64,000 bases of DNA from Fibrobacter sp. UWB2 (GCF_002210425.1 NZ_MWQK01000005.1:124001-188000); one strand, 5' to 3'. Positions 26,604-39,805 are shown, numbered from the stretch's first letter. Numbers and translations: made by a program. The notes: generated by a model not told the origin, from the sequence alone.

Positions 26604-26636
26604 AAAAAAAAGGAGACGGACCGAAGTCCGCCTCCC
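26604..26636 (-). terminator. Terminator of module 1
   Basis: On the minus strand GGAGGCGGAC-TTCG-GTCCGTCTCC is followed by eight T. An AGGAGGAAA sequence sits just before it with no gene behind. Confidence 0.85.
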
Positions 26637-26648
26637 CTCTTTTCCTCC

Positions 26649-26693
26649 TCACATAGTAAGGGTATTAGAATCATCTGTAGTAACGCCCGTCAT
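26649..26693 (-). CDS. Possible 14-residue mini-ORF after module 1
   Basis: The peptide MTGVTTDDSNTLTM starts 16 bases after the FISUMP gene stop, with a strong ribosome site (CAGGAGG) 6 bases before its ATG. Its TGA stop runs straight into another AGGAGGAAA and then the terminator. Module 3 has a similar arrangement. It could be a real small peptide, a translational buffer before the hairpin, or a decayed gene end. Confidence 0.3.
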   Translation of the reverse strand: MTGVTTDDSNTLTM

Positions 26694-26709
26694 AATTGCC
26701 TCCTGCCCG

Positions 26710-28458
26710 TTAGTTTTTGACGCAGCGAACACTTATGCGTACATCCGGATCATCAGACACATTGTAATCAATCGGCTTCCAGTTATCCATTGTAAGTACC
26801 CATACCGACCACGCACCTTTGTATTCCTGATCTAAAAATGTCATATACTCCACCGTAATATCGCCAAATCCAATCTGGTGCAAATACTGTGAGGCGTACC
26901 ATCCAAAGCCCTCATAAACCTCAAATTGTTCCCTGCAATCCTGAGAATAACATTCACCACTTTCTTTTTCGGCAAAGTAAAATACTCGAGACCATTCCTT
27001 ACGAGTCGGGATATGCCACCCATCCGGGCAAATACCCTGGAAATGCCCATTATCCATTACAATCGAATCGCCACCAATGACGTCAGAAACAGCGTATCCC
27101 GCATAAGTTTCCCAATACGAGGAATCACGCGAATTGATGTATTCTTTAAATTCACCATCGCGGCCCTGATTTTTAACAAAGAAAGCCGAATCAATTCCCA
27201 AAACAGGCTGAACAAGCGAATCGCTATACCTCAGGTTTTCAGCAAGCCAGGTATAAGTTGAATCCTCGAAACTGTACGTCACCGTATTATAGACTTTTCC
27301 ATCGCGAGCATCCGTCATCGTCCCTTTCGTAACAGAGAAAGCCTCTTCAATTTCTTCCGGGGTATTCTTATCCAAAATAGTCCACGCGCCCGAAACACAC
27401 GTAATATCCTTAAACAGCTTTGACTCGCACGGAAGTTCTACAGTACGCCCTTCCGATTTCGCAGTACACGCCCCAAGTTCATAAAGGGTTGCCAAGAAAC
27501 CATCCAAGAATGCGGGATTTCCAGAGCCGGATTTCATACGGACTCGGAACGAATACGCTCTCGCTGCGAAAAAGTCCCTTATCGAATCTACAGACGTAAA
27601 CGTTCCCGACGCCCCAAACACATCAGCAAGTTCAACCGGTGAATTTGTCCGTCTCCAATAAGACGTAAACGCATTCATATAAAGCATCGCAGTTTCATAT
27701 TTAGAATATGCGGGATACCTTCCTTTATCGAAATAAAAACTACCATTAGGCAAGCCAAAAGCACTGAGAATTTCACGATCGGCCTGTTGTTTTGCAGCCG
27801 CGAAGTCCATTCCTTGACGGACAAGATAACGCAAGCGAGCGGCCTCCAAATAAGTCATGATGTTGATATCAACGCCACCAGAATCCCGCACATCAACGAT
27901 TATGCTATACGTTATCGGATACTCTCCCCAAATTTCATCATAGGCATCAAAAGACCATGTTCCGTCCCACGTCCAAGAACCATCTTCAACGTAAGGCGCG
28001 ATTTCAAGCATGACATACGGGCTGTTCAGCGAAACGCTGTCAAAACGGAATTCGCCGTCATAACCGTTGCACTTGGCAAAATAAAACACGCCTGTCGTAT
28101 CCAAAGTCACCGAATCCAATTCAGCCATTCTTATAATCGTACCTTCTTTCGCGGCTACACTCCACGTGTTCATGGCAGAACTATCAACGACTTCAGTACT
28201 TTCAACATTACGAGCTAGCATTTTTGCACCACCCGTCACGTTTATATTCGGAAGCAAAGCCTCAACAGCGGGTTCCTCGGAAGAGCCTCCTAAATAGCTC
28301 GTTTCTTCAGTGGAACCGCCCATAGAGCAGCCTACAACCATCACAGCGAAGAACGTAGCGATAGCAAAGTTCAAGATTATACTCAAGCCCGCAATCAGGA
28401 ACAATCGCAAGTTCGTCTTTTTACAGACAAGTTGTCCGCAATTTTTTGAGTAATTCAT
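26710..28458 (-). CDS. Module 1 FISUMP surface lipoprotein
   Basis: This 582-residue protein starts MNYSKNCGQLVCKK, like two other copies, then a long hydrophobic signal with lipobox VVGCS (cysteine 44). The N-terminal domain contains IRMAELDSVTLDTTGVFYF and LNSPYVMLEIAPYV, a beta-rich region shared by the four copies. The C-terminal third is a FISUMP domain: TMTDARDGKVYNTVTYSFE, YTWLAENLRYSD, GICPDGWHIPTRKEW, ending SVRCVKN. It is translationally coupled to its regulator: a TAG stop lies inside its TAGGAGG ribosome site, 9 bases upstream. It is the most diverged copy. Ligand unknown. Confidence 0.85.
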   Translation of the reverse strand: MNYSKNCGQLVCKKTNLRLFLIAGLSIILNFAIATFFAVMVVGCSMGGSTEETSYLGGSSEEPAVEALLPNINVTGGAKMLARNVESTEVVDSSAMNTWSVAAKEGTIIRMAELDSVTLDTTGVFYFAKCNGYDGEFRFDSVSLNSPYVMLEIAPYVEDGSWTWDGTWSFDAYDEIWGEYPITYSIIVDVRDSGGVDINIMTYLEAARLRYLVRQGMDFAAAKQQADREILSAFGLPNGSFYFDKGRYPAYSKYETAMLYMNAFTSYWRRTNSPVELADVFGASGTFTSVDSIRDFFAARAYSFRVRMKSGSGNPAFLDGFLATLYELGACTAKSEGRTVELPCESKLFKDITCVSGAWTILDKNTPEEIEEAFSVTKGTMTDARDGKVYNTVTYSFEDSTYTWLAENLRYSDSLVQPVLGIDSAFFVKNQGRDGEFKEYINSRDSSYWETYAGYAVSDVIGGDSIVMDNGHFQGICPDGWHIPTRKEWSRVFYFAEKESGECYSQDCREQFEVYEGFGWYASQYLHQIGFGDITVEYMTFLDQEYKGAWSVWVLTMDNWKPIDYNVSDDPDVRISVRCVKN

Positions 28459-28467
28459 GATATCCTC

Positions 28468-29298
28468 CTAACCCTTTTTAACACTCTTTTTTGTCAACGG
28501 GAAAAACTGAACGTTTAGTCGGTAGACCTCGTCCGTTTCGTCATCGCGCGTGGCAATCGCAATGATGCGCTTGCGGAATGCAGCGATTTCCTCAACAATT
28601 TCATCGTAAGCAGATTGCGTGATACCGAGCGTGAGGCCAGAAAAATGGCGTTGATCTTGCGGCACACCTTCAATAGTTTCAAGTGCGAACTCGCCCATCT
28701 GGCGATGCATCCCGCGGACAGCCACAGGAGTCACATCCATAGGTCCTGTCGTTACGGATTTTTCAGTTTGGACATAATTGCCGTTTTCGTCTTTTTGCAA
28801 CAAGTTCGCCTTGATCAAGAAACTCAGCGATTCAGAGACTTCGGCGGCAGTGATTTCCGGGCGGCAGGCTTTGGCAAGCGCAAGCGGTTTTGCGCCAGGC
28901 ATGGCAGGGGCTAGTTCACGGAGTACCGGATTTTTCCAGCTATCAAAATAACGGAAGGAATCTCCCTCAAGAACTCTTACTTTATGGATGTCAGCGATAG
29001 CGAGCATTTTGTTGAAAATGGACTTTTTCTCTTCGTCCGTTTTCGCATGGTCGAACCTGACCATTTCGCAAAAGTAATCCAGTTCGTAATTTGCAAGGCC
29101 CATCGCAGATGCCACTTGACCTGCAGTTTCTTCGCTCAAGTTAGAGCGGCCTTCACTCACGTATTTTAGGAACACCGGCGACGAAAACCCTGCCGCCCGC
29201 GTAAAAGTTTGCCAAGTAAACGCGGATTTTGCCTTTTTCTCGGCGTAATAATCCGCGATGTACTGGTGATAGTTCGTGTACTCTAGTACATCCTTCAT
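28468..29298 (-). CDS. Module 1 TIGR02147-family regulator
   Basis: The 276-residue protein belongs to the Fibrobacter paralogous family TIGR02147 (C-terminal DUF4423). Residues about 25-70 look like an HTH: FTWQTFTRAAGFSSPVFLKY, then VSEGRSNLSEETAG. The central WKNPVLRELAPAMPG and C-terminal GLTLGITQSAYDEIVEEIAAF are near identical in all four copies. Proteins of this type are probably transcription regulators; the signal is unknown. The start at 29298 is supported by GGGAGGATACG before the ATG. Confidence 0.85.
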   Translation of the reverse strand: MKDVLEYTNYHQYIADYYAEKKAKSAFTWQTFTRAAGFSSPVFLKYVSEGRSNLSEETAGQVASAMGLANYELDYFCEMVRFDHAKTDEEKKSIFNKMLAIADIHKVRVLEGDSFRYFDSWKNPVLRELAPAMPGAKPLALAKACRPEITAAEVSESLSFLIKANLLQKDENGNYVQTEKSVTTGPMDVTPVAVRGMHRQMGEFALETIEGVPQDQRHFSGLTLGITQSAYDEIVEEIAAFRKRIIAIATRDDETDEVYRLNVQFFPLTKKSVKKG

Positions 29299-29356
29299 CG
29301 TATCCTCCCAACAAAACAACCTCTTGATCCGAAGACCCGTGTCGTTTCTAATTTGA

Positions 29357-29385
29357 AATATAGCCTACAAAATCTAAAAAGTCAA
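29357..29385 (-). promoter_or_regulatory. Module 1 promoter
   Basis: TTGACT (29380-29385), a 17-base spacer and TATATT (29357-29362). The sequence AAAACTATTG overlapping the -35 is shared by all four modules and may be an operator. Confidence 0.75.
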
Positions 29386-29504
29386 TAGTTTTGTGATAAA
29401 TAATTCACGTTTTTAAAGAAATTTAAGCATTATTATCATTTTTTATAAAAATTAAGCAATTTTAAGGATATAAATAAAATAACTTAACATTCATAAAACA
29501 AGAA

Positions 29505-29534
29505 GGTGATCCCGGCACAAGGCCGGGATGACAG
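29505..29534. repeat. REP-like palindrome
   Basis: ATCCCGGCACAAGGCCGGGAT followed by GACAG, next to the module 2 terminator. The rest of the gap 29299-29610 holds the module 1 promoter and AT-rich DNA; no gene was seen. Confidence 0.65.
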
Positions 29535-29539
29535 AGCAC

Positions 29540-29568
29540 AAAAAGAAGGCGGGGCGAACCCCGTCTTC
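29540..29568 (-). terminator. Terminator of module 2
   Basis: On the minus strand GAAGACGGGG-TTCG-CCCCGCCTTC is followed by a short T run. TTAGGAGGAAAGG precedes it, as in module 3. Confidence 0.85.
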
Positions 29569-29610
29569 CCTTTCCTCCTAACAAATAATTTTTATGCAGT
29601 TTTAAATGGT

Positions 29611-31446
29611 TTAGTTTTTGATGCAGCGGACAGCGGCAGAAGTATTCGGTGCATAAGGGCTATAATTATACCCCTCACTTTCTATTCTTTTCACAAAGGC
29701 ATGCATATCCGCCAACCCTAAACTAAAACCATCAGGTTTCCAATTGAAAATTTCCAATTCATACAAAGGCACATCCGCTAAAACAAACTCGTTAGTGTAC
29801 CCAAAGGTTATGAAATACACAAGACGAAGTTCTTCCTCAATGCTAGCCTGAACCCAGCCTTTCAAATCAAATCCCGTCGCAACAGCATCATAAAGCGCCG
29901 GCAAAACGTCATTTTGATCAACACCATATCGTTCACCCATATTCCGCAACAACGTTTGCCAATCTTCAAATGTCGGGATTCTCCACCCATCCGGGCAAAC
30001 GCCCTGATACGCATTATGATTTGACGGCGTGATATAATCTGTATAATTCCAAGTCCAAGCATTTTGAGAATAATCTCCAAATGGATCTGACTCCGACTTC
30101 GCAAAATACGTTGTATCCCCAAGAGAATCAACAGAATATACCTTCACTTCATCGTCTCCAATATTCATTGCGGCTTTCCACTGATACGCATGTCCATACA
30201 CCCCGCAATCCGCCATTCTATAATCTTCCTGATGGTAGTAGCAGTCGATGCTCCCAGACAAATTCGCTCTTAACGAACTATCAACACTCAAAGATGTGGT
30301 ATCCACAAAATCAAGATTTTCCGCCATCCAAGTTTGCGAGACATCGCCCCAATTATACGTCACCGTCTTATAAGTTTTTCCATCTCGATTATCCGTCATA
30401 GAACCCATGGTATGTTCAATCGTTTTAAATCCCAAAGTCCACTTAGCGGAGCGGCAAACTACAGACACCTTACCTTCAAGGGCATTGATTTCAGCGGCTG
30501 CATTTTCGCGAGCATCCGTACACTGGCCAAGGTCATTCAATCGAGCCATATAGCCAACCTTATAGTCTATCATTTTTTTCGAATTCAAATAATATTGTTC
30601 TCGAATTTCGCCTCGCCCAACAAATAATTTCGGCGGCACCGCATAAACAAGCATAGGATCCATCCCACGAAGATCTTTAAGCATACTAGATTCGCTCATT
30701 CGAACCAGCTCATTCACAAAAGCCAACTCAGAATTTCCGTCGTTTAAATTTTCAAATCCGCCGAAATATTCATATATGCCAAGATTTTCAAGGATTTCAT
30801 GTTCAGCCATTTTACCCGCTTCTGCAAAGGATTTTCCTTCAGCGAAATACTTTTGCAACAACGGCATCTTGGAAGTAGTGAGAGAGCTTACACTTACTTT
30901 TTTCACATCTCTCAAATCCACAACAGCCTTCAACTCCTGCGAAAACATACGACGGTCACGCGAACTATCCACCATGCTTGCCGGCCTAGACGCATTACGC
31001 CCATAGAAAGCTCCACGTTCTCGACAATTTTCTACATAGCACGAATCCAAGGTTTCAATCAGCACATACGGGCTATTTAGAGCTAGCGACTCAAATGCAA
31101 AACGACCACTATCATTATCAACGGTATCCACAAAAGAACGGCCCGTTTTTTCAAGCGTCAACGAATCCAATTCATAAACAGAAACAACCGTTCCCTTAGC
31201 AGCAAACACAGAACCATCGTTCTTCAAAGAATCCTCCGATCCGTTCTCGTCCGCTGTCGACATCAGCAACGCAGGATACACATCGCCCACGCGACCCACC
31301 AAAGCATAGACACCTTGTTCTTCCGTGTAGCCGCCGTCTTGCGCAAGCGGAGAAACGCTAGGTTCATCTGAGCACGCCGCAAACATAAAGGCCAGCAGCA
31401 TAGCCATTTTGCAGGCAACCAGCCCGCTAAACTTAGAGTAATTCAT
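29611..31446 (-). CDS. Module 2 FISUMP surface lipoprotein
   Basis: The 611-residue protein starts MNYSKFSGLVACKMAMLLAF with lipobox FAAC (cysteine 25). Next come GVYALVGRVGDVYPALL, VVSVYELDSLTLEKTGRSF and LNSPYVLIETLDSC, a probable Ig-like or carboxypeptidase-regulatory-like beta domain. A helical segment with KYFAEGKSFAEAGKMAEHEI follows. The FISUMP domain shows TMTDNRDGKTYKTVTYNWGD, QTWMAENLDF, GVCPDGWRIPTFEDW and terminal AAVRCIKN. It follows its regulator by 8 bases with a TAG stop inside TAGGAGG. It is the closest relative of module 4. Confidence 0.87.
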   Translation of the reverse strand: MNYSKFSGLVACKMAMLLAFMFAACSDEPSVSPLAQDGGYTEEQGVYALVGRVGDVYPALLMSTADENGSEDSLKNDGSVFAAKGTVVSVYELDSLTLEKTGRSFVDTVDNDSGRFAFESLALNSPYVLIETLDSCYVENCRERGAFYGRNASRPASMVDSSRDRRMFSQELKAVVDLRDVKKVSVSSLTTSKMPLLQKYFAEGKSFAEAGKMAEHEILENLGIYEYFGGFENLNDGNSELAFVNELVRMSESSMLKDLRGMDPMLVYAVPPKLFVGRGEIREQYYLNSKKMIDYKVGYMARLNDLGQCTDARENAAAEINALEGKVSVVCRSAKWTLGFKTIEHTMGSMTDNRDGKTYKTVTYNWGDVSQTWMAENLDFVDTTSLSVDSSLRANLSGSIDCYYHQEDYRMADCGVYGHAYQWKAAMNIGDDEVKVYSVDSLGDTTYFAKSESDPFGDYSQNAWTWNYTDYITPSNHNAYQGVCPDGWRIPTFEDWQTLLRNMGERYGVDQNDVLPALYDAVATGFDLKGWVQASIEEELRLVYFITFGYTNEFVLADVPLYELEIFNWKPDGFSLGLADMHAFVKRIESEGYNYSPYAPNTSAAVRCIKN

Positions 31447-31454
31447 GTTTCCTC

Positions 31455-32288
31455 CTAACCTTTTTTATTAATACTTTTGTTTGTCATCGGAAAGAGCTGC
31501 ACATTTAAACGGTAGACATCGTCCATACCGTCATCTTGCGTCGCAATCGTAATAATCCTCTTGCGGAATTCAGCTATTTCCTGAACAATTTTTTCGTAGG
31601 CATCGCGCGTGATACCGAGCGTAAGGCCTGAGAAATGGCGTTCATCTTGAGCAACGCCTTCAATGGCTTCCAAAGCAAACTCACCCATCTGGCGATGCAT
31701 TTCGCGAACCGCAATCGGAGTCACCTCCATCGGCCCTGTCGTCACGCCTCTTTCGGTCTGCTTGTAATTTCCGTCTTTATCTTTTTGGAGCAAGCCCGCC
31801 TTGACGAGAAAATTCAACGTTTCCGTCACCTCGGCGGCTGTAATTTCTGGGCGGCAGGCACGGGCAAGCGCAAGCGGCCTTGCACCGGGCATCGCTGGGG
31901 CAAGTTCACGGAGTACCGGATTTTTCCAGCTTTCAAAATAGCGGAATGAATCGCCTTCGATGATTTTCGCCTTGACAGAATCTGCAATTGAAAGCATTTT
32001 GCCAAAAGCGGCCTTTTTCTCGGCATCCGTTTTTGCGTTGTCAAACTTGACCATTTCGCAAAAGTAATCTTGTTCGTAGCCAGCAAGATGCATGGCCTGC
32101 GCCACGCGCAGTGCAGCCGCATCGCTCAAGTTAAGCTTACCTTCGCTAGCATACTTCAGATGAACTGGCGAAGAGAATCCCGCCGCACGCGTGAACTCCT
32201 GCCAAGTGAATGCGGATTTGGCCTTTTTGTCGGCGTAGTAATCCGCAATATACTGACGATAACTAGTGTATTCTAGTATATCTTTCAT
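31455..32288 (-). CDS. Module 2 TIGR02147-family regulator
   Basis: This 277-residue copy starts MKDILEYTSYRQYIADYYAD with a strong ribosome site (TTAGGAGGAAACA). HTH-like region: FTWQEFTRAAGFSSPVHLKY, then ASEGKLNLSDAAAL. It shares WKNPVLRELAPAMPG, ALARACRPEITAAEV and MHRQMGEFALEAIEG with the other copies. Variation is strongest in the HTH region and around residues 85-110, as expected if each copy reads a different site or signal. Confidence 0.85.
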   Translation of the reverse strand: MKDILEYTSYRQYIADYYADKKAKSAFTWQEFTRAAGFSSPVHLKYASEGKLNLSDAAALRVAQAMHLAGYEQDYFCEMVKFDNAKTDAEKKAAFGKMLSIADSVKAKIIEGDSFRYFESWKNPVLRELAPAMPGARPLALARACRPEITAAEVTETLNFLVKAGLLQKDKDGNYKQTERGVTTGPMEVTPIAVREMHRQMGEFALEAIEGVAQDERHFSGLTLGITRDAYEKIVQEIAEFRKRIITIATQDDGMDDVYRLNVQLFPMTNKSINKKG

Positions 32289-32347
32289 TGTTTCCTCCTA
32301 ACGTAAACAGCATCTCGACTTACAGGTCCGTGCCGTTTACAGAATCA

Positions 32348-32376
32348 AATATAAATCACAAATTTTAAAAAGTCAA
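32348..32376 (-). promoter_or_regulatory. Module 2 promoter
   Basis: TTGACT (32371-32376), 17-base spacer, TATATT (32348-32353), preceded by the shared AAAACTATTG. Confidence 0.75.
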
Positions 32377-32493
32377 TAGTTTTATCATAAATTTTTAGCG
32401 TTTTTAGTAAAATTTAAGCAATTTTTATCATTCATTAAAAATTTTAGTCATTTTTCACAATATAAACAAAATAACCATCATTTCTACAAAACG

Positions 32494-32526
32494 AGATGCC
32501 GATCCCGGCACAAGGCCGGGATAACA
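32494..32526. repeat. REP-like palindrome
   Basis: ATCCCGGCACAAGGCCGGGAT followed by AACAA. The gap 32289-32663 also holds the module 2 promoter, the module 3 terminator and a mini-ORF. Confidence 0.65.
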
Positions 32527-32530
32527 ACGC

Positions 32531-32562
32531 AAAAAAAAGAAGGCGGGCCGAAGCCCGTCTTC
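32531..32562 (-). terminator. Terminator of module 3
   Basis: On the minus strand GAAGACGGGC-TTCG-GCCCGCCTTC is followed by eight T. TTAGGAGGAAAAGG precedes it. Confidence 0.88.
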
Positions 32563-32588
32563 CCTTTTCCTCCTAACATAAATAGTCT

Positions 32589-32630
32589 TTATGAGTTCAT
32601 TGCATTTTCTTCCGAAGTACTTCCCATCAT
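32589..32630 (-). CDS. Possible 13-residue mini-ORF after module 3
   Basis: The peptide MMGSTSEENAMNS starts 33 bases after the FISUMP gene, with ribosome site GAGGAGGAACAAA. As after module 1, it is followed by an orphan AGGAGGAAA and the terminator. The two peptides share a small, Ser/Thr- and acid-rich composition but do not align. Confidence 0.3.
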   Translation of the reverse strand: MMGSTSEENAMNS

Positions 32631-32663
32631 TTTGTTCCTCCTCACAATTATTTACAATTCGCT

Positions 32664-34625
32664 TTATTTCTTTATGCAACGAACAAAAGCCGAATAAAAG
32701 TTGTCAACAGGCGTAAAGAACGTCGTCTCTGGACCAACACCAACACCAAGCATGTTCAACGGCATGCCCGCATTTTTTCCATAGAAAGTAAGCGAATAAA
32801 TGGGCGCATCTGCCACAATAAACTGAATCCACCAAGAACTGCTTATAGACATCCATCCAGTCTCTTCCTCGACAAAGATTTCCTCAACGACTTTTTCCAT
32901 TCCAAAACCGGTCGCCTCATCATCGTAAAGGACGACGCCCGATTCAAGAGAATCAACACCATAGGCATCTCCCATAATTTGCAACAACTTTTTCCAATCG
33001 TCCGCCGTGGGAATTCGCCACCCATCAGGGCATACACCTTGATAGTCATCCTTATTTTTATCCGCCATGTATTCGACATAACCATACGACCAATCAGGAC
33101 CCGGCAGATATCTACCACCATACATAGATTGACAAGTTTCTTTCACACTTTTTAGACACTCATCATCATGGTCGTCGCACTTCAACATTTTTTCTTCAAC
33201 ACAGTCCATTACGGAGTCATAATCGCCTGGAATTTTGCGAGACCAGGTATACAAGGTATCACAATGCTGTTGAATCCGATATTGTTCATTCGCGCAAACC
33301 ATATCTTCAGATGGGCACTCTTTTATTTGAGCATCGTAGCATTGCTGTTCCAAGAACAACGTATCGCCATTCGGTTCAACGGCATATACCCTAAAGTCTT
33401 TTTCGCCGATACCCATTGCGCCAATCCACGAATAATAACGGCCATACAATTTACACCACGGATCATAAACCTTACACAACGAATGTCCTGGCAAATTTGC
33501 CTTCAACGCGCTGTCAGCAATCAACGACGTATCCGCGAAATTCAAATTCTCGGCCATCCATGTCTGCGAAACGCCATTCGCATCATACGTCACCGTTTTA
33601 TAAACTGTTCCATCGCGAGGGTCCGTCATTGTGCCTTTTGTATAATCCATCTTTTTAAAGCCCAACGTCCACTTTCCAGAGCGGCAGACAATTGTAATAG
33701 GCGCACCATAATAATCTTCTATAGATTGCATTTCACCTTCACGCGCTTCCGCGCATCGTCCAAATCCATGTTCTTTCGCATAATAACCCACTCGATAATT
33801 GTTCATTTTTTCCGCATTTCGATAAAGGCGTTCAACAGCGCCGCCTCTCTTAGCAATTAATTTGGGCGAAATAAACAACAAGGATTTATAAAATTCATGA
33901 AGATCCATGTGAACTTTAAACGCAGAATAAGGCTGCAAATCACCGACCATTTCTTGTAAAAAAGGCAAATCCGAATTTTCATCGCCACCTTCTTCAAAGG
34001 CACCCAGGCTCTCGTAAACGCCATAACTTTCAAGGATTTCGCTTTCGGCTTTATCGCTTGCAGTAGCCGCATCCATCCCCTCGGCAACATATTTCAACCA
34101 AAGCGGAACTTTCTTGTTCGTCAACGAATTCACGCTGATCTCTTTGATTTTTCGCAAATCAACAATGGCTCTTGCCACTTCCATATATATAACATTATTC
34201 TCTGTTGCATACACGGAATCCCAATCCGCGCGTTGGCGACATGTCGGGCAGCTCAAGGAATCAAACGATCTTTGATTTTCAATCAACACATAAGGGCTTT
34301 GCAAAGAAACATCTTCGAACGAGAAACGACCATCTTTGTTCTTCAACGAATCAGTAAAACTACGGCCAGTTTTAGCAAGCGTCACAGAATCCAATTCAAA
34401 AACAACAACAATCGAGCCTTCTAGTGCAATCAAAGCTTGGCCCGAGACCGCCCCCGATTCCTTTGCACGAAGCATCATTGGAATAACATCGCCAATTCGC
34501 CCATTCAAAACATATGCGGTTTCTTCTTCGGCGCCACCCATCGAGCCAAGTGATTTGTTTTCGTCTGAGCAAGCCGCCAAAAGGAGCGCCATCAGCGCAG
34601 CCAAAGTAATCTTGTTGAAATTCAT
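32664..34625 (-). CDS. Module 3 FISUMP surface lipoprotein
   Basis: This 653-residue copy has a short signal with lipobox LLAAC (cysteine 19). It shares AYVLNGRIGDVIPMML, VVVFELDSVTLAKTGRSF and LQSPYVLIENQRSFD with modules 2 and 4. Its FISUMP domain (TMTDPRDGTVYKTVTYDANG, QTWMAENLNFAD, GVCPDGWRIPTADDW, terminal FVRCIKK) contains an insertion rich in paired cysteines (EKMLKCDDHDDECLKSVKET), as module 4 has at the same place. This is a likely variable ligand-facing loop. It follows its regulator by 9 bases. Confidence 0.86.
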   Translation of the reverse strand: MNFNKITLAALMALLLAACSDENKSLGSMGGAEEETAYVLNGRIGDVIPMMLRAKESGAVSGQALIALEGSIVVVFELDSVTLAKTGRSFTDSLKNKDGRFSFEDVSLQSPYVLIENQRSFDSLSCPTCRQRADWDSVYATENNVIYMEVARAIVDLRKIKEISVNSLTNKKVPLWLKYVAEGMDAATASDKAESEILESYGVYESLGAFEEGGDENSDLPFLQEMVGDLQPYSAFKVHMDLHEFYKSLLFISPKLIAKRGGAVERLYRNAEKMNNYRVGYYAKEHGFGRCAEAREGEMQSIEDYYGAPITIVCRSGKWTLGFKKMDYTKGTMTDPRDGTVYKTVTYDANGVSQTWMAENLNFADTSLIADSALKANLPGHSLCKVYDPWCKLYGRYYSWIGAMGIGEKDFRVYAVEPNGDTLFLEQQCYDAQIKECPSEDMVCANEQYRIQQHCDTLYTWSRKIPGDYDSVMDCVEEKMLKCDDHDDECLKSVKETCQSMYGGRYLPGPDWSYGYVEYMADKNKDDYQGVCPDGWRIPTADDWKKLLQIMGDAYGVDSLESGVVLYDDEATGFGMEKVVEEIFVEEETGWMSISSSWWIQFIVADAPIYSLTFYGKNAGMPLNMLGVGVGPETTFFTPVDNFYSAFVRCIKK

Positions 34626-34634
34626 AGTTTCCTC

Positions 34635-35465
34635 CTAGTCTTTATTAGCACTCTTTTTGGTCATCGGGAAGAACTGCACATTCAGACGGTAGACCTCTTC
34701 CGTTGCAGTTTCACTTGTCGCAATCGCAATGATGTCCTTACGAAATTCGGCAATTCTCTGCACGATTTTTTCGTACGCTTCGCGAGTGATACCAAGCGTA
34801 AGGCCCGAGAAATGACGTTCGTCCTGAGGGACGTTTTCAATGGCGTCGAGTGCAAACTCGCCCATTTGACGATGCAACCCGCGAACGGCGAGCGGTGTAA
34901 ATTCCATCGGGCCAGTGGTCACGACTTTATCGGTTTGAGCGTAGTTCCCATCTTTATCTTTTTGGAGCAAATTCGCCTTGACCAAGAAACTCAGCGATTC
35001 AGAGACTTCGGCAGCGGAAACTTCGGGGCGGCAGGCACGCGCCATCGCCAAAGGCTTTGCGCCAGGCATGGCAGGAGCGAGTTCACGGAGCACCGGATTT
35101 TTCCAGTCTTCAAAAAAGCGGAAGGACTCGCCATCGACGATTTTCGCCTTATGGGACTCTGCAATCGAGACCATCTTGCTGAAAGCAGCGCGCTTATCGG
35201 CATCGTTCTTCGCATGGTCAAACTTGACCATTTCAACAAAGAATTCGCATTCGTAATCGGTGAGATTTATGGAGCGGGCCAAGCGATCGGCCGCAGATTC
35301 GCTCAAGTTGAAGCGACCCTCGCTCACGTATTTAAGGTAGACCGGCGAAGAGAAACCTGTTGTTTTGGCGAACTCCTGCCAAGAAAACGCAGTCTTCGCC
35401 TTTCGATCGGCGTAGTAATCCGCGATATACCGGCGGTAGTCCGTATATTCTAGTATATCTTTCAT
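34635..35465 (-). CDS. Module 3 TIGR02147-family regulator
   Basis: The 276-residue copy starts at 35465 (MKDILEYTDYRRYIADYYAD) after CTAGGAGGAAAA. HTH-like region: FSWQEFAKTTGFSSPVYLKY, then VSEGRFNLSESAADRLA. It retains WKNPVLRELAPAMPG and MGEFALDAIENVPQDERHF. Its promoter is divergent from the GSCFA gene. Confidence 0.85.
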   Translation of the reverse strand: MKDILEYTDYRRYIADYYADRKAKTAFSWQEFAKTTGFSSPVYLKYVSEGRFNLSESAADRLARSINLTDYECEFFVEMVKFDHAKNDADKRAAFSKMVSIAESHKAKIVDGESFRFFEDWKNPVLRELAPAMPGAKPLAMARACRPEVSAAEVSESLSFLVKANLLQKDKDGNYAQTDKVVTTGPMEFTPLAVRGLHRQMGEFALDAIENVPQDERHFSGLTLGITREAYEKIVQRIAEFRKDIIAIATSETATEEVYRLNVQFFPMTKKSANKD

Positions 35466-35517
35466 TTTTCCTCCTAGCAAACAACCTCTTTGTGCCGGTT
35501 CGTTTGTTGTTAATCTA

Positions 35518-35546
35518 AATATAACTCATAAATTTCCAAAAATCAA
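35518..35546 (-). promoter_or_regulatory. Module 3 promoter
   Basis: TTGATT (35541-35546), 17-base spacer, TATATT (35518-35523), preceded by the shared GTAAAACTATTG. Confidence 0.72.
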
Positions 35547-35656
35547 TAGTTTTACAATATGTTTTGCTTATTTTTACAAGAATTTAAAGGATTTTTGATA
35601 CATATACAAAAATTATATAAATCAACAATACGCCAAATATTATAGAAATAACCTAC

Positions 35657-35662
35657 TATATT
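35657..35662 (+). promoter_or_regulatory. Possible leaderless -10 box of the GSCFA gene
   Basis: TATATT ends 6 bases before the ATG at 35669 and no Shine-Dalgarno sequence lies between. No good -35 was seen. Confidence 0.4.
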
Positions 35663-35668
35663 TACTTC

Positions 35669-36667
35669 ATGGACTTTTTCACGAAAATCGATATTCCGGT
35701 TGCCGATTGGCAAATCGACTATAATTCTAAGCTCGCTTTTTTCGGGTCATGCTTTGCAGACAATATTTCGGCGCAGTTTGCATCGCGAAAATTCAACGTT
35801 TTAGCAAATCCGTTCGGAACGGTTTACAATCCGCTTTCGGCGGCGATGCAGATCAAGGCTATTGCGAACGGGAAAAAATTTGGAGGTCCCGAAATTTTTC
35901 AGGACGCACGCGGTCCGTGGCACTGTTGGGATGCGCATAGTTCACTTTCTGCAGCAACACGTGAAGAGTGCATTGCAAAATTGGACGAAGCCACAGCTAA
36001 AGCACATGAGTTTTTGCAGAAAGCCGATACCGTATTTATTACGCTCGGAACTGCGTTTGTGTACTTTTTGAGAGAAAACGGGGTTGCCGTTTCGAATTGC
36101 CATCGGCAAGACCCGAGAATGTTCATCCGCAAAATGATTTCCGTGGACCATGCGGCAGAAGCGCTGAAAAGCATCGTGCATGATTTGCTGAAGTTAAAAA
36201 ATGACCGAATCGGCGAGAATCGCGAATTTCACATTGTCTTTACAGTTTCACCGTTACGGCATTTGAGCGACGGCGCTCACGAAAACACACTTTCAAAAGC
36301 GACATTGCAACTCGCAATAGAAAAGGTCACAAGAGAAATCGTCACAGAGCCCGCGACAACCATCAGTTATTTCCCGAGTTACGAGATTGTGATGGACGAA
36401 CTGCGCGACTACCGCTTTTACGATGACGACATGATTCATTTGTCAAAGACGGCAGAAGGCTACATCTTTGAGCGCATGGCAGAAACGTACTGCAACGAGA
36501 AAACGCGCGAAGATATCCGCAAAGTGGAAAAGTTCATGAAAATGGCAAACCACCGTGTCGTTGACTCGCAATCGCCCGCCTCACGAGAATTCGCACAAAA
36601 GATTATAGCACAAGCCGAAACGCTCGAGAAAGAAATCACTGGGTTACATCTCAATAACGAGAAATAA
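35669..36667 (+). CDS. GSCFA-domain protein
   Basis: The 332-residue protein carries the family signature in KLAFFGSCFADNISAQF, then NPFGTVYNPLSAA. Further on are DTVFITLGTAFVYFLREN and FTVSPLRHLSDGAHEN, with YFPSYEIVMDELRDYRFYDDD then MIHLSK near the end. GSCFA proteins are distant SGNH-hydrolase relatives, mostly of unknown substrate. There is no signal peptide. It is the only plus-strand gene inside the four-module array and has no known tie to it. Confidence 0.85.
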   Translation: MDFFTKIDIPVADWQIDYNSKLAFFGSCFADNISAQFASRKFNVLANPFGTVYNPLSAAMQIKAIANGKKFGGPEIFQDARGPWHCWDAHSSLSAATREECIAKLDEATAKAHEFLQKADTVFITLGTAFVYFLRENGVAVSNCHRQDPRMFIRKMISVDHAAEALKSIVHDLLKLKNDRIGENREFHIVFTVSPLRHLSDGAHENTLSKATLQLAIEKVTREIVTEPATTISYFPSYEIVMDELRDYRFYDDDMIHLSKTAEGYIFERMAETYCNEKTREDIRKVEKFMKMANHRVVDSQSPASREFAQKIIAQAETLEKEITGLHLNNEK

Positions 36668-36668
36668 T

Positions 36669-36698
36669 GGATTCCCTCCCTTACGGTCGAGGATGACG
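36669..36698. repeat. REP-like element (diverged)
   Basis: GGATTCCCTCCCTTACGGTC then GAGGATGACGAG, between the GSCFA gene and the module 4 terminator. Confidence 0.5.
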
Positions 36699-36704
36699 AG
36701 ATGA

Positions 36705-36731
36705 AAAGAAGGCGGGCCGAAGCTCGCCTTC
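36705..36731 (-). terminator. Terminator of module 4
   Basis: On the minus strand GAAGGCGAGC-TTCG-GCCCGCCTTC is followed by TTTTC. It may also end GSCFA transcripts. Confidence 0.8.
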
Positions 36732-36772
36732 CTCTTTCCTCCTAACAGTATTTCCGTTAAGTTTTCATTGGT

Positions 36773-38722
36773 TTAGTTTTTGATGCAGCGGACTGCGAAC
36801 AAGTCAGAGTTAAAAAAGTTGAATCGGACTTTCTTATGGGATGTAGCAGCCAAAAGAGGAGTTTGCTCGCTCTTGCCAACTCGGACAAAACTACCATCTT
36901 GATCCAGAACCGAGGCAAATTCATAGTAACCGTATATTATCATTTTCGGCTCAGGAACTCCCGAACCATAGGATTCCACAACTATTCCTTCAATATCCCC
37001 AAAGCCACTCGCATCAGCGTGCTTTAACAAGACACCTTGACTTGCCATGTTTTCAATCAAGAGATCCCAATCAGCTTTATTGGGGATTCGCCATCCATCT
37101 GGACACACGCCCTGATAAGTTGCAAGTTCCGATTCAGGGATAACACTCGAACTATCAAAATAGATTCCATTTCCATATTTATGGTTGCAATAATCCCACA
37201 ACGTTTCAGCAGTATCTAATTCATAACATTCATCCGCTTCAGTTCTAAAAAGGCAATATTCAATCCTATTACTTTCATCTTCATACGCACGCAAATCAAA
37301 CTCAACCGTCAAGCACCGATCTTCAACAGACTCCGTTTTTAGCATCATGTCCTTACCCAACACACGGTCGTAAACATCGGCATTCAACTTAAGAAAAGAT
37401 TCATCAATATTCATAAACGCAGTCCACTTGTAAAAACGGCCCAGTTTTTCACATGACGGATCGTATTCCCAGCAATTCGTTTTTCCAAGCAAATTCTTTT
37501 TCAAGGTACTATCAACACTTGAAGACACCGTATCCGCAAAATTCAGATTTTCGGCCATCCACGTTTGCGTGACATCACCCCAGTTATACGTAACGGTCTT
37601 ATATGTTTTTCCATCGCGATTGTCCACCATCGTTCCACTTGTGTATGAAGCCTTTTTGGAATCAACCACCCATTTTTTTGACCGGCAGGCGACTGCAAAC
37701 TTGGGCAATTCATAAAATTCACGAATTGCAATAGTATCTACATCGTTTTCACGCAATTCCGTACATTGTCCCAATCCAACCTTATGAGCCAAATAGCCAA
37801 CCTCATATTCGAACAACTTTATTGTATTCAAATAATATTGCTGCATTTCTTCTGACGCAGAGAATCGCGACAAAGGCGCAAAGTAAACTTCTTTATAGAT
37901 CCAGATAAAATCATAACCCAATAATTCATTTTTTATTTCATCTCCACCTCCACGTCCCAAATCGTCAAGTTCAGAAATTTTCAAGTACAATGCCATAACA
38001 TAATTCAATTCTTCATTTTCCAGGTCTTCAAAGCTTCCAAGATCTTCGTAAATGCCTATGTTTTCAAGAATGTCCTGTTCAGCCTTTTTGCTGGCCTCCG
38101 CAAACGACATTCCTTCGGCAAAGTACGCCCGCACTAGCGGGACCTTTTTATTGGACAACGTATTGACGCTTATCTTCTTATACTTTTTCAAGTCAACAAT
38201 AGCGCTCCTCAAAACCGGATATTTTTGCGATCCATATACACTCGCCGCTCCTGTTGAATCAAATTTCGTAGGAAGATAGGTCGTAAAGCCCCACGCACCA
38301 GCACGCTCAAGACAATTATTGGTGATGCAGGAATCAAGCGTTTCAATCAATACATACGGGCTATTCAAGGTAAGGTTTTCGAACGAAAAACGACCATCAT
38401 CATTATCAATCGTATCGACAAACGTACGACCTGTGGCCGCAAGAGATGACGAATTCAGTTCGTAAATAGTCACAACGGTTCCTTTCGCAGCATACAGGGA
38501 ACCTTCATCATTTTGGATATTTGCCGAGCTATTGCCTTCCTTCGCAAGCAACTTGGGATACACATCGCCCACGCGTCCAGACAAGGCATAAACGCCTGTT
38601 TCTTCAACGGTGCCACCGGCAACACCGTTTCCTGAATTTGTTTCCGAGCATGCCGCGAACACAAAGGCGAGCAGCATCGCCATTTTGCAGACAAACTGTC
38701 CGCTAATTTTTGAATAATTCAT
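36773..38722 (-). CDS. Module 4 FISUMP surface lipoprotein
   Basis: The 649-residue copy starts MNYSKISGQFVCKMAMLLAF with lipobox FAAC (cysteine 25), nearly identical to module 2. It contains GVYALSGRVGDVYPKLL, TVVTIYELNSSSLAATGRTF and LNSPYVLIETLDSC, then RAYFAEGMSFAEASKKAEQD. The FISUMP domain has TMVDNRDGKTYKTVTYNWGD, QTWMAENLNFAD, a cysteine-containing insert (RIEYCLFRTEADECYEL), GVCPDGWRIPNKADW and terminal FAVRCIKN. It follows its regulator by 14 bases. Confidence 0.87.
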   Translation of the reverse strand: MNYSKISGQFVCKMAMLLAFVFAACSETNSGNGVAGGTVEETGVYALSGRVGDVYPKLLAKEGNSSANIQNDEGSLYAAKGTVVTIYELNSSSLAATGRTFVDTIDNDDGRFSFENLTLNSPYVLIETLDSCITNNCLERAGAWGFTTYLPTKFDSTGAASVYGSQKYPVLRSAIVDLKKYKKISVNTLSNKKVPLVRAYFAEGMSFAEASKKAEQDILENIGIYEDLGSFEDLENEELNYVMALYLKISELDDLGRGGGDEIKNELLGYDFIWIYKEVYFAPLSRFSASEEMQQYYLNTIKLFEYEVGYLAHKVGLGQCTELRENDVDTIAIREFYELPKFAVACRSKKWVVDSKKASYTSGTMVDNRDGKTYKTVTYNWGDVTQTWMAENLNFADTVSSSVDSTLKKNLLGKTNCWEYDPSCEKLGRFYKWTAFMNIDESFLKLNADVYDRVLGKDMMLKTESVEDRCLTVEFDLRAYEDESNRIEYCLFRTEADECYELDTAETLWDYCNHKYGNGIYFDSSSVIPESELATYQGVCPDGWRIPNKADWDLLIENMASQGVLLKHADASGFGDIEGIVVESYGSGVPEPKMIIYGYYEFASVLDQDGSFVRVGKSEQTPLLAATSHKKVRFNFFNSDLFAVRCIKN

Positions 38723-38736
38723 GGTTTCCTCCTCGT

Positions 38737-39567
38737 TTATTTTTTCAAATCTTGTTTTTGCGTCAGCGGGAAAAGTTGCATATTCAGGCGATAGACTTCG
38801 TCTGTGGCGGCGTTTTTCCGAGCAATGGCGATAACTTTTTTACGGCAATCAGCAATTTCTTGCACGATTTCGTCGTAGCCGTCTTTGGTGATACCAAACG
38901 TGACACCGGAGAAATTTCGTTTATCCTGAGCCACACCCTCGATTGCTTCAAGCGCAAGCTCTCCCATTTGGCGGTGCATTGTACGGACGGCCAACGGAGT
39001 CACTTCCATGCGGCCCGTTGTCAAGGATTTATCAGTTTGTACGTAATTGCCTTCGTCATTTTTTTCAAGGAATCCGCCCTTGACGAGGAAGTTCAGCACA
39101 TCGCTGACTTCGGCGGCGGTAATTTCTGGGCGGCAGGCATGGGCAAGTGCAAGCGGCTTTGCACCAGGCATTGATGGCGCAAGTTCTCGAATGACAGGAT
39201 TTTTCCAACTTTCGAAAAAGCGGAACGAATCGCCTTCCAAGATTTTAGCCTTGTGGGAGTCCGCAATTGCAAGCATTTTGTTGAATGCTGCCTTCTTTTC
39301 GGCATCCGTTTTGGCATGGTCAAACTTGACCATTTCAGTGAAATATTCGCGTTCGTAATCGACCAAGCGCATGGCATCAGCTACGCGGGCTGTCGCCGTT
39401 TCGCTCAAGTTAAAGCGGCCTTCGCTCACGTATTTCAGATAAACACGCGAAGAAAAACCAGCTTCGGTAGCGAACGTCTGCCAGGTAAACGCAGAACTCG
39501 CCTTTTTGTCGGCGTAGTAGTCCGCAATATACTGGCGATAGCTCGTATATTCTAGTATTTCTTTCAT
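38737..39567 (-). CDS. Module 4 TIGR02147-family regulator
   Basis: The 276-residue copy starts MKEILEYTSYRQYIADYYAD after TAAGGAGGAAAA. HTH-like region: FTWQTFATEAGFSSRVYLKY, then VSEGRFNLSETATAR. It differs from the others in the C-terminal half (LNFLVKGGFLEKNDEGNYVQ), fitting an independent signal. It ends with a TAA rather than the TAG-in-ribosome-site junction seen in modules 1-3. Confidence 0.85.
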   Translation of the reverse strand: MKEILEYTSYRQYIADYYADKKASSAFTWQTFATEAGFSSRVYLKYVSEGRFNLSETATARVADAMRLVDYEREYFTEMVKFDHAKTDAEKKAAFNKMLAIADSHKAKILEGDSFRFFESWKNPVIRELAPSMPGAKPLALAHACRPEITAAEVSDVLNFLVKGGFLEKNDEGNYVQTDKSLTTGRMEVTPLAVRTMHRQMGELALEAIEGVAQDKRNFSGVTFGITKDGYDEIVQEIADCRKKVIAIARKNAATDEVYRLNMQLFPLTQKQDLKK

Positions 39568-39655
39568 TTTTCCTCCTTACGACAATCCCTGAATTCTTCA
39601 GGATCCGTAAAAAAAACGAATTGCGGTTCTTTTGTCCGTTTCGTTTCTGAAATCA

Positions 39656-39684
39656 AATATACAACATATTTTTCAAAAACACAA
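39656..39684 (-). promoter_or_regulatory. Module 4 promoter
   Basis: TTGTGT (39679-39684), 17-base spacer, TATATT (39656-39661), preceded by the shared GTAAAACTATTG. Confidence 0.68.
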
Positions 39685-39805
39685 TAGTTTTACAACACAA
39701 AATATTGATTTTTACAAAATTTTTAAAGATTTTATAAAATATTGCAAAATTTTAAGCATTTTCCACAATACAAATGTATTGTAGAAATGATTTATTGATA
39801 TAGAA

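Follow-up and report, generated by a model that had tools for sequence, protein, structure and literature searches.

Fibrobacter is a main degrader of cellulose in the rumen. In the Bacteroidota, polysaccharide-utilisation loci (PULs) place a local regulator beside genes for surface lipoproteins, possible glycan binders, and carry a SusC/SusD pair. In cassette-exchange surface antigens, for example variable lipoproteins, recombination puts new bodies into an unchanged expression site. Autoregulators of the lambda-cI type combine an XRE helix-turn-helix with a site abutting the -35 box of their own promoter.

FISUMP (TIGR02145) proteins have been proposed to be attachment proteins or cohesin analogues and are abundant in the Fibrobacteres, most of whose genomes encode 17 to 119 of them (PMC4704652). 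One such protein of F. succinogenes S85 was detected on cellulose and not on glucose (PMC4619616). Local regulators are scarce near Fibrobacter cellulase genes (PMC3079729). FISUMP-like domains elsewhere are targets of retroelement diversification (PMC4159848). Regulators of the type found beside the FISUMP genes in the present study belong to TIGR02147 (Fsuc_second) and PF14394 (DUF4423), which the databases name merely as a paralogous family. TIGR02147 was not mentioned in the open literature searched, nor did that open literature yield a description of the lipoprotein pairing, the private operators or the relation between recognition helix and operator word reported below. For DUF4423 genes of Bdellovibrio it yielded an entry in an expression table.

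In this work we focused on an array within a window, i.e. the whole stretch of 64,000 nucleotides that was analysed; it belongs to contig 5 of a 3.53-Mb Fibrobacter genome. As the initial annotation had described, the window contains four minus-strand pairs of a TIGR02147/DUF4423 regulator gene followed by a FISUMP lipoprotein gene, with gaps of 9, 8, 9 and 14 bp:

28471..29298, minus strand: module 1 regulator, helix GFSSPVFLKYVSEG
26713..28458, minus strand: module 1 FISUMP lipoprotein
31458..32288, minus strand: module 2 regulator, helix GFSSPVHLKYASEG
29614..31446, minus strand: module 2 FISUMP lipoprotein
34638..35465, minus strand: module 3 regulator, helix GFSSPVYLKYVSEG
32667..34625, minus strand: module 3 FISUMP lipoprotein
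38740..39567, minus strand: module 4 regulator (TIGR02147/DUF4423), helix GFSSRVYLKYVSEG
36776..38722, minus strand: module 4 FISUMP lipoprotein
35669..36667, plus strand: gene unrelated to the modules, inside the array; its DNA is kept at the same place in four relatives

The four modules are clustered, but they do not stand strictly in a row, as had been written, because this unrelated gene separates modules 3 and 4. The array regulators are 72-76% identical to M2, and for the regulator tested the assignment to TIGR02147 was far over the cut-off (full-length HMM match). The array lipoproteins are conserved at their ends and show only about 28-31% overall identity to the first one. All four in the window match FISUMP (TIGR02145) with 66.9-84.1 bits against a cut-off of 41.65, and carry a lipobox-like N-terminal signal with a cysteine, a sequence pattern by which they are predicted to be signal peptidase II substrates. 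The terminator hairpins, which had been called similar in each module, proved alike on comparison, those of modules 3 and 2 being located as follows:

32544..32557, minus strand: module 3 terminator hairpin, CGGGCTTCGGCCCG followed by a T-run
29550..29563, minus strand: module 2 terminator hairpin, CGGGGTTCGCCCCG followed by a T-run

Directly ahead of the terminators of modules 1-3 lie sequences resembling ribosome-binding sites, AGGAGGAAA(A)GGGAAG, with no gene after them (26628-26648, 29561-29578 and 32555-32573). REP-like palindromes GATCCCGGCACAAGGCCGGGATGAC are found between modules, at about 29508-29535 and 32497-32525 of the window, and are possible recombination points. The proposal that the set is expandable was supported by the same array in four related genomes, where it comprises 3, 4, 4 and 5 modules, and by another tandem array, made up of three TIGR02147-FISUMP modules (C5:363500-379000, locus L022, and loci L070-L077), whose regulators were found in matching regions of related genomes too. 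A contig filed as Treponema sp. UBA4326 (L121) also holds a Fibrobacter array module, probably through a binning error.

As in PULs, a regulator gene adjoins genes for putative surface lipoproteins; unlike in PULs, the unit consists of two genes, its regulator is of a one-component XRE-winged-helix kind, and neither a SusC/SusD pair nor an anti-sigma partner was noticed there among the open reading frames listed for the window. The array shares with cassette-exchange antigens the replacement of bodies while the expression site remains, but each Fibrobacter site comes with a dedicated regulator and operator word, and silent cassettes were not noticed. Like lambda-cI, the array regulators are of XRE type and a candidate site abuts the -35 box of their own promoter; in contrast to it, the sites lie 70-74 bp apart, a second, winged-helix domain is present, and dozens of paralogues with different words occur in one genome. 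With respect to the FISUMP (TIGR02145) proteins, the four lipoproteins of the window carry the domain together with a lipoprotein signal, FISUMP being one type of payload among several.

The genome holds 34 intact TIGR02147 genes plus one at a contig end, and all 34 regulators match both DUF4423 and TIGR02147 over the curated cut-offs. Downstream of 33 of the 34 lies a gene with a lipoprotein signal, nearly always within ~20 bp and often overlapping; the sole TIGR02147 gene without such a partner is located at C7:63247-64062 (L026). FISUMP was found in only 9 of the 33 pairs, the other partner domains being Laminin_G_3 (LamG), CBM_4_9, CIA30, DUF2341 and a carboxypeptidase-regulatory-like (transthyretin-like) domain, and the majority of the genome's FISUMP genes lack a TIGR02147 regulator as partner. 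With ~45 FISUMP genes among roughly 3,000 genes, we estimated that ~0.5 FISUMP neighbours would be expected by chance, so that the adjacency is real. The pairing of TIGR02147 with TIGR02145 that had been put forward initially therefore goes beyond chance, but it is a special case of a more general rule, that of a regulator with a lipoprotein.

Across the phylum, 111 of the 121 genomes sampled contained TIGR02147, one of them in as many as 85 scored copies. In eight genomes of distant Fibrobacterota, drawn from further genera, families and classes, we counted a lipoprotein partner at 28 of 29 assessable loci; several of these partners escaped the lipobox pattern and were recognised by eye. Most partners have in common a tether motif after the lipid cysteine, AGG..(S/E)ET(T)N-like. 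A rough pattern for it hit 16 of the 24 paired lipoproteins that were detected, against 4 of 29 unpaired ones, these four resembling chance hits. In 88 array lipoproteins, conservation reaches at least 90% in columns G38, G39, E42 and E43 of the tether. Judged by these sequence patterns, pairing of the regulator with a predicted lipoprotein is general, and the tether motif goes with it. At one contig end (C1:781674-787043, L009) a regulator C-terminus and the start of a lipoprotein are present again, almost unchanged from the first copy, which points to either recent tandem duplication or a break in the assembly.

An AlphaFold model of the module 2 regulator (m48d69a6d370e, pLDDT 86) shows an N-terminal XRE helix-turn-helix and a winged helix in the middle, and the fold search gave domain-level matches to HigA/XRE (Z 8.6) and to ArsR/MecI/MarR winged helices (Z 8.2). 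The C-terminal part is modelled as a winged helix and helices, ComR being a weak match with regard to RRNPP/TPR membership. For the lipoprotein, the N-terminal part matched the PgcA non-heme domain (Z 10.0) and transthyretin-like folds (Z ~6). No solved structure was found by sequence search. Among the 34 regulators, PADLOC defence models gave only single weak matches. Two candidate classes were rejected: a HigA-like toxin-antitoxin pair, since the partners bear lipobox signals and envelope-type domains and the likeness to HigA is limited to the N-terminal fold, and a target of a diversity-generating retroelement, since the 99.99% complete genome gave no match to an RVT_1 reverse transcriptase.

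The four modules had been assigned the same promoter type. Their -35 and -10 boxes and their layout are indeed shared, but the operator word differs module by module:

29357..29385, minus strand: module 1 promoter, TTGACT-17-TATATT
29389..29405, minus strand: module 1 candidate operator site B, TTTATCACAAAA
29461..29482, minus strand: module 1 candidate operator site A, TTATTTATATCC, 8/12 match to B
29299..29350, minus strand: leader ahead of the module 1 regulator; the hairpin before the ribosome-binding site is weakly supported in module 1
32348..32376, minus strand: module 2 promoter, TTGACT-17-TATATT
32380..32396, minus strand: module 2 candidate operator site B, TTTATGATAAAA
32452..32473, minus strand: expected position of module 2 site A, occupied by a module-3-type word, TATATTGTGAAAA, 6/12 against its own B
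35518..35546, minus strand: module 3 promoter, TTGATT-17-TATATT
35550..35566, minus strand: module 3 candidate operator site B, CATATTGTAAAA
35622..35643, minus strand: module 3 candidate operator site A, CGTATTGTTGA
39656..39684, minus strand: module 4 promoter, TTGTGT-17-TATATT
39688..39704, minus strand: module 4 candidate operator site B, GTGTTGTAAAA, abutting the -35 box
39760..39781, minus strand: module 4 candidate site A, TTTGTATTGTG within the palindrome CTACAATACATTTGTATTGTGG, 73 bp upstream of B

Array-type promoters carry the word next to their -35 box (site B) a second time, 71-73 bp further upstream (site A), and this word is specific to the module. Over 59 non-redundant promoters, site B matched its own site A at 7.83 of 12 and the site A of other modules at 7.02 (0/100,000 permutations). 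Direct repeats spaced by 70-74 bp were also enriched when the regions upstream of all 34 regulators of the genome were compared with AT-matched upstream regions (13/34 versus 1/28 with a score of at least 12, p = 0.002), and of the 14 spacing bins this one stood out most, with 40-44 bp (p = 0.03) in second place. Examples are ATTTTTGTTTTATA, present twice 72 bp apart, and GTGTTCCCAA, present twice 74 bp apart. Repeats at 20-50 bp are strong too, because of A/T tracts. An unconstrained search for repeats in single upstream sequences placed 5 of 34 above shuffles and was not informative, so the spacing-constrained test was used instead. Taken over the array-type promoters, the candidate sites are paired. 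Within the window, the match between A and B is good in module 4, moderate in modules 1 and 3 and absent in module 2; the mismatch in module 2 and the moderate matches in modules 1 and 3 are points against a two-site reading.

Site A as a general inverted repeat was rejected, array promoters scoring 5.64 and shuffles 5.66; individual palindromic cases are clear, e.g. TTGTATCCCAGGGATACAA. The sequence AAACTATTGANTTTT occurs 4 times in the 3.5 Mb genome, three times at array promoters, which points to few targets elsewhere. Its remaining exact occurrence (L171:5945-5959, C6) lies ahead of a glutathione-peroxidase-like gene and shows no clear site A. The 5' leaders of array-type modules tend to form a hairpin directly ahead of the ribosome-binding site (mean z -1.5), with 7 consensus pairs, 6 of which show at least one double change.

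In a set of 52 well-anchored promoters, every operator word is matched by a single recognition-helix sequence. The SPVY helix is found with TATTGT in 25/25 cases, SPVF with TATCA (7) or TATCC (1), SPVH with TATGAT (9, plus two variants), SSIF with ATGTC in 4/4 and SRVY with a GTTGT-like word in 4/4. Of all regulator positions, residues 43 and 52 are the most informative about the word. Given the rest of the protein, the helix was related to site B with a partial Mantel r of 0.43 (0/5,000 permutations) and weakly to site A (partial r = 0.13, 100/5,000 permutations), the compared module pairs not being mutually independent. Since helix types are partly clades, the covariation is not wholly independent of descent. 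Helix and word do covary in these alignments, which suggests private and mutually insulated autoregulation of the modules. The modules had been supposed to be individually switchable, and private words that covary with the recognition helix lend this indirect support.

The initial annotation had also noted that lipoprotein loops vary. The lipoproteins do vary, but in more than their loops, whole bodies being swapped between modules. In a best-match comparison of 84 array-type modules from many Fibrobacter genomes, the best match was of the same helix type for 75/81 helix-turn-helix regions, 70/81 regulator remainders and 63/81 lipoprotein N-termini, and for 38/81 lipoprotein middles and 43/81 FISUMP parts, where we estimated from the type frequencies that ~20/81 would be expected by chance. 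Body similarity was equal for modules of the same and of other types (33 vs 33%). When regulators were at least 88% identical, the bodies had diverged in 112 of 128 pairs; in such pairs identity holds through the signal peptide and the tether and drops from about residue +20.

Individual cases show the same discontinuity. The module 1 regulator is identical to its orthologue in the genome G042 (260 residues compared), and the 97% DNA identity between the two loci stops at the lipoprotein start codon, the lipoprotein being replaced in G042. The module 2 body shares 91% identity over 538 amino acids with a body in G034 that stands under a TATTGT promoter and an SPVY regulator, and the module 3 body has a 78% DNA match to a lipoprotein under another regulator in G049. 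At least 8 cases were found, the module 2/G034 pair included, in which bodies 75-96% identical to each other stand under different regulator types, and in many orthologous modules the bodies are just 25-45% identical. On the evidence of these alignments, payloads are exchanged while regulator, operator, signal peptide and tether are kept together between species.

We consider it probable that the modules are self-addressed expression units with interchangeable surface proteins. The first gene would encode a one-component regulator with an XRE-type helix-turn-helix and a winged-helix DUF4423 domain. This regulator probably binds its module-private word at two sites separated by 70-74 bp, or some seven turns of the DNA helix, possibly with a loop bridging them; the nearer site abuts the -35 box, and the regulator would control its own transcription and that of the outer-envelope lipoprotein co-transcribed with it. 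Since modules differ in both word and recognition helix, cross-regulation of neighbouring units is not expected. Operator, regulator, signal peptide and AGG..EE tether, being linked, would make up a stable address, and the remaining lipoprotein a payload that may be swapped between addresses and strains by recombination, so that the displayed repertoire could change without rewiring of control. The lipoprotein is presumably exposed at the surface and may bind plant polymers or other ligands. The only lead towards a possible part in choosing plant polymer targets, as had been suggested initially, comes from the carbohydrate-binding-type domains of some partners and from the S85 FISUMP protein detected on cellulose, which may or may not belong to such a pair. 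With respect to activation or repression, a near-consensus promoter speaks mildly for autorepression, and the position of site B beside the -35 box would equally allow autoactivation of the lambda-cI kind. A wider version, in which address and payload hold throughout the phylum, with dozens of paralogous regulators per genome, private words set by a few helix residues, independent and possibly bistable control, an address inherited as a block and a regulator that perhaps senses the leader of its own lipoprotein, appears unlikely.

Alternatively, the regulators may serve homeostatic autorepression or follow one global cue, the words reflecting drift of matched paralogous pairs and display not being selective. 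Near-consensus promoters and self-linked operators fit this possibility, and in S85 most quantified lipoproteins (40/49) shifted together, down on cellulose (PMC6851124). It leaves unexplained, however, the exchange of bodies under kept addresses and the presence of up to about 85 separate addresses per genome, and we give it an appreciable but minor chance.

The regulator could also sense the N-terminus of the lipoprotein that it is paired with, either the signal peptide or the tether, much as enterococcal pheromone regulators do, and in this way gauge export or kin. Signal peptide and tether do go with the regulator and not with the body (N-terminus 63/81 versus middle 38/81, with the drop at +20), and gene order and tether are conserved phylum-wide. 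Yet physical closeness to the regulator gene alone yields the same linkage, the modelled C-terminal part appears to consist of a winged helix and helices and not of a TPR-like fold, and the tether, being common to all modules, cannot alone give module specificity, which makes such sensing a distinctly improbable explanation. Diversifying selection, by which bodies would evolve very fast in place and merely appear replaced, could account for orthologous bodies that are often just 25-45% identical, but is most improbable in view of the 75-96% identical bodies found at least 8 times under different regulator types and of the abrupt change in DNA identity at the lipoprotein start codon.

Self-addressed units with exchangeable payloads would bear on the question of how Fibrobacter chooses and changes its surface attachment proteins, and point to a mechanism by which surface proteins may be changed and regulation kept. 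With them a large regulator family gains a testable role and ready specificity pairs of recognition helix and operator word, and such natural, mutually insulated regulator-operator sets may be useful for building genetic circuits.
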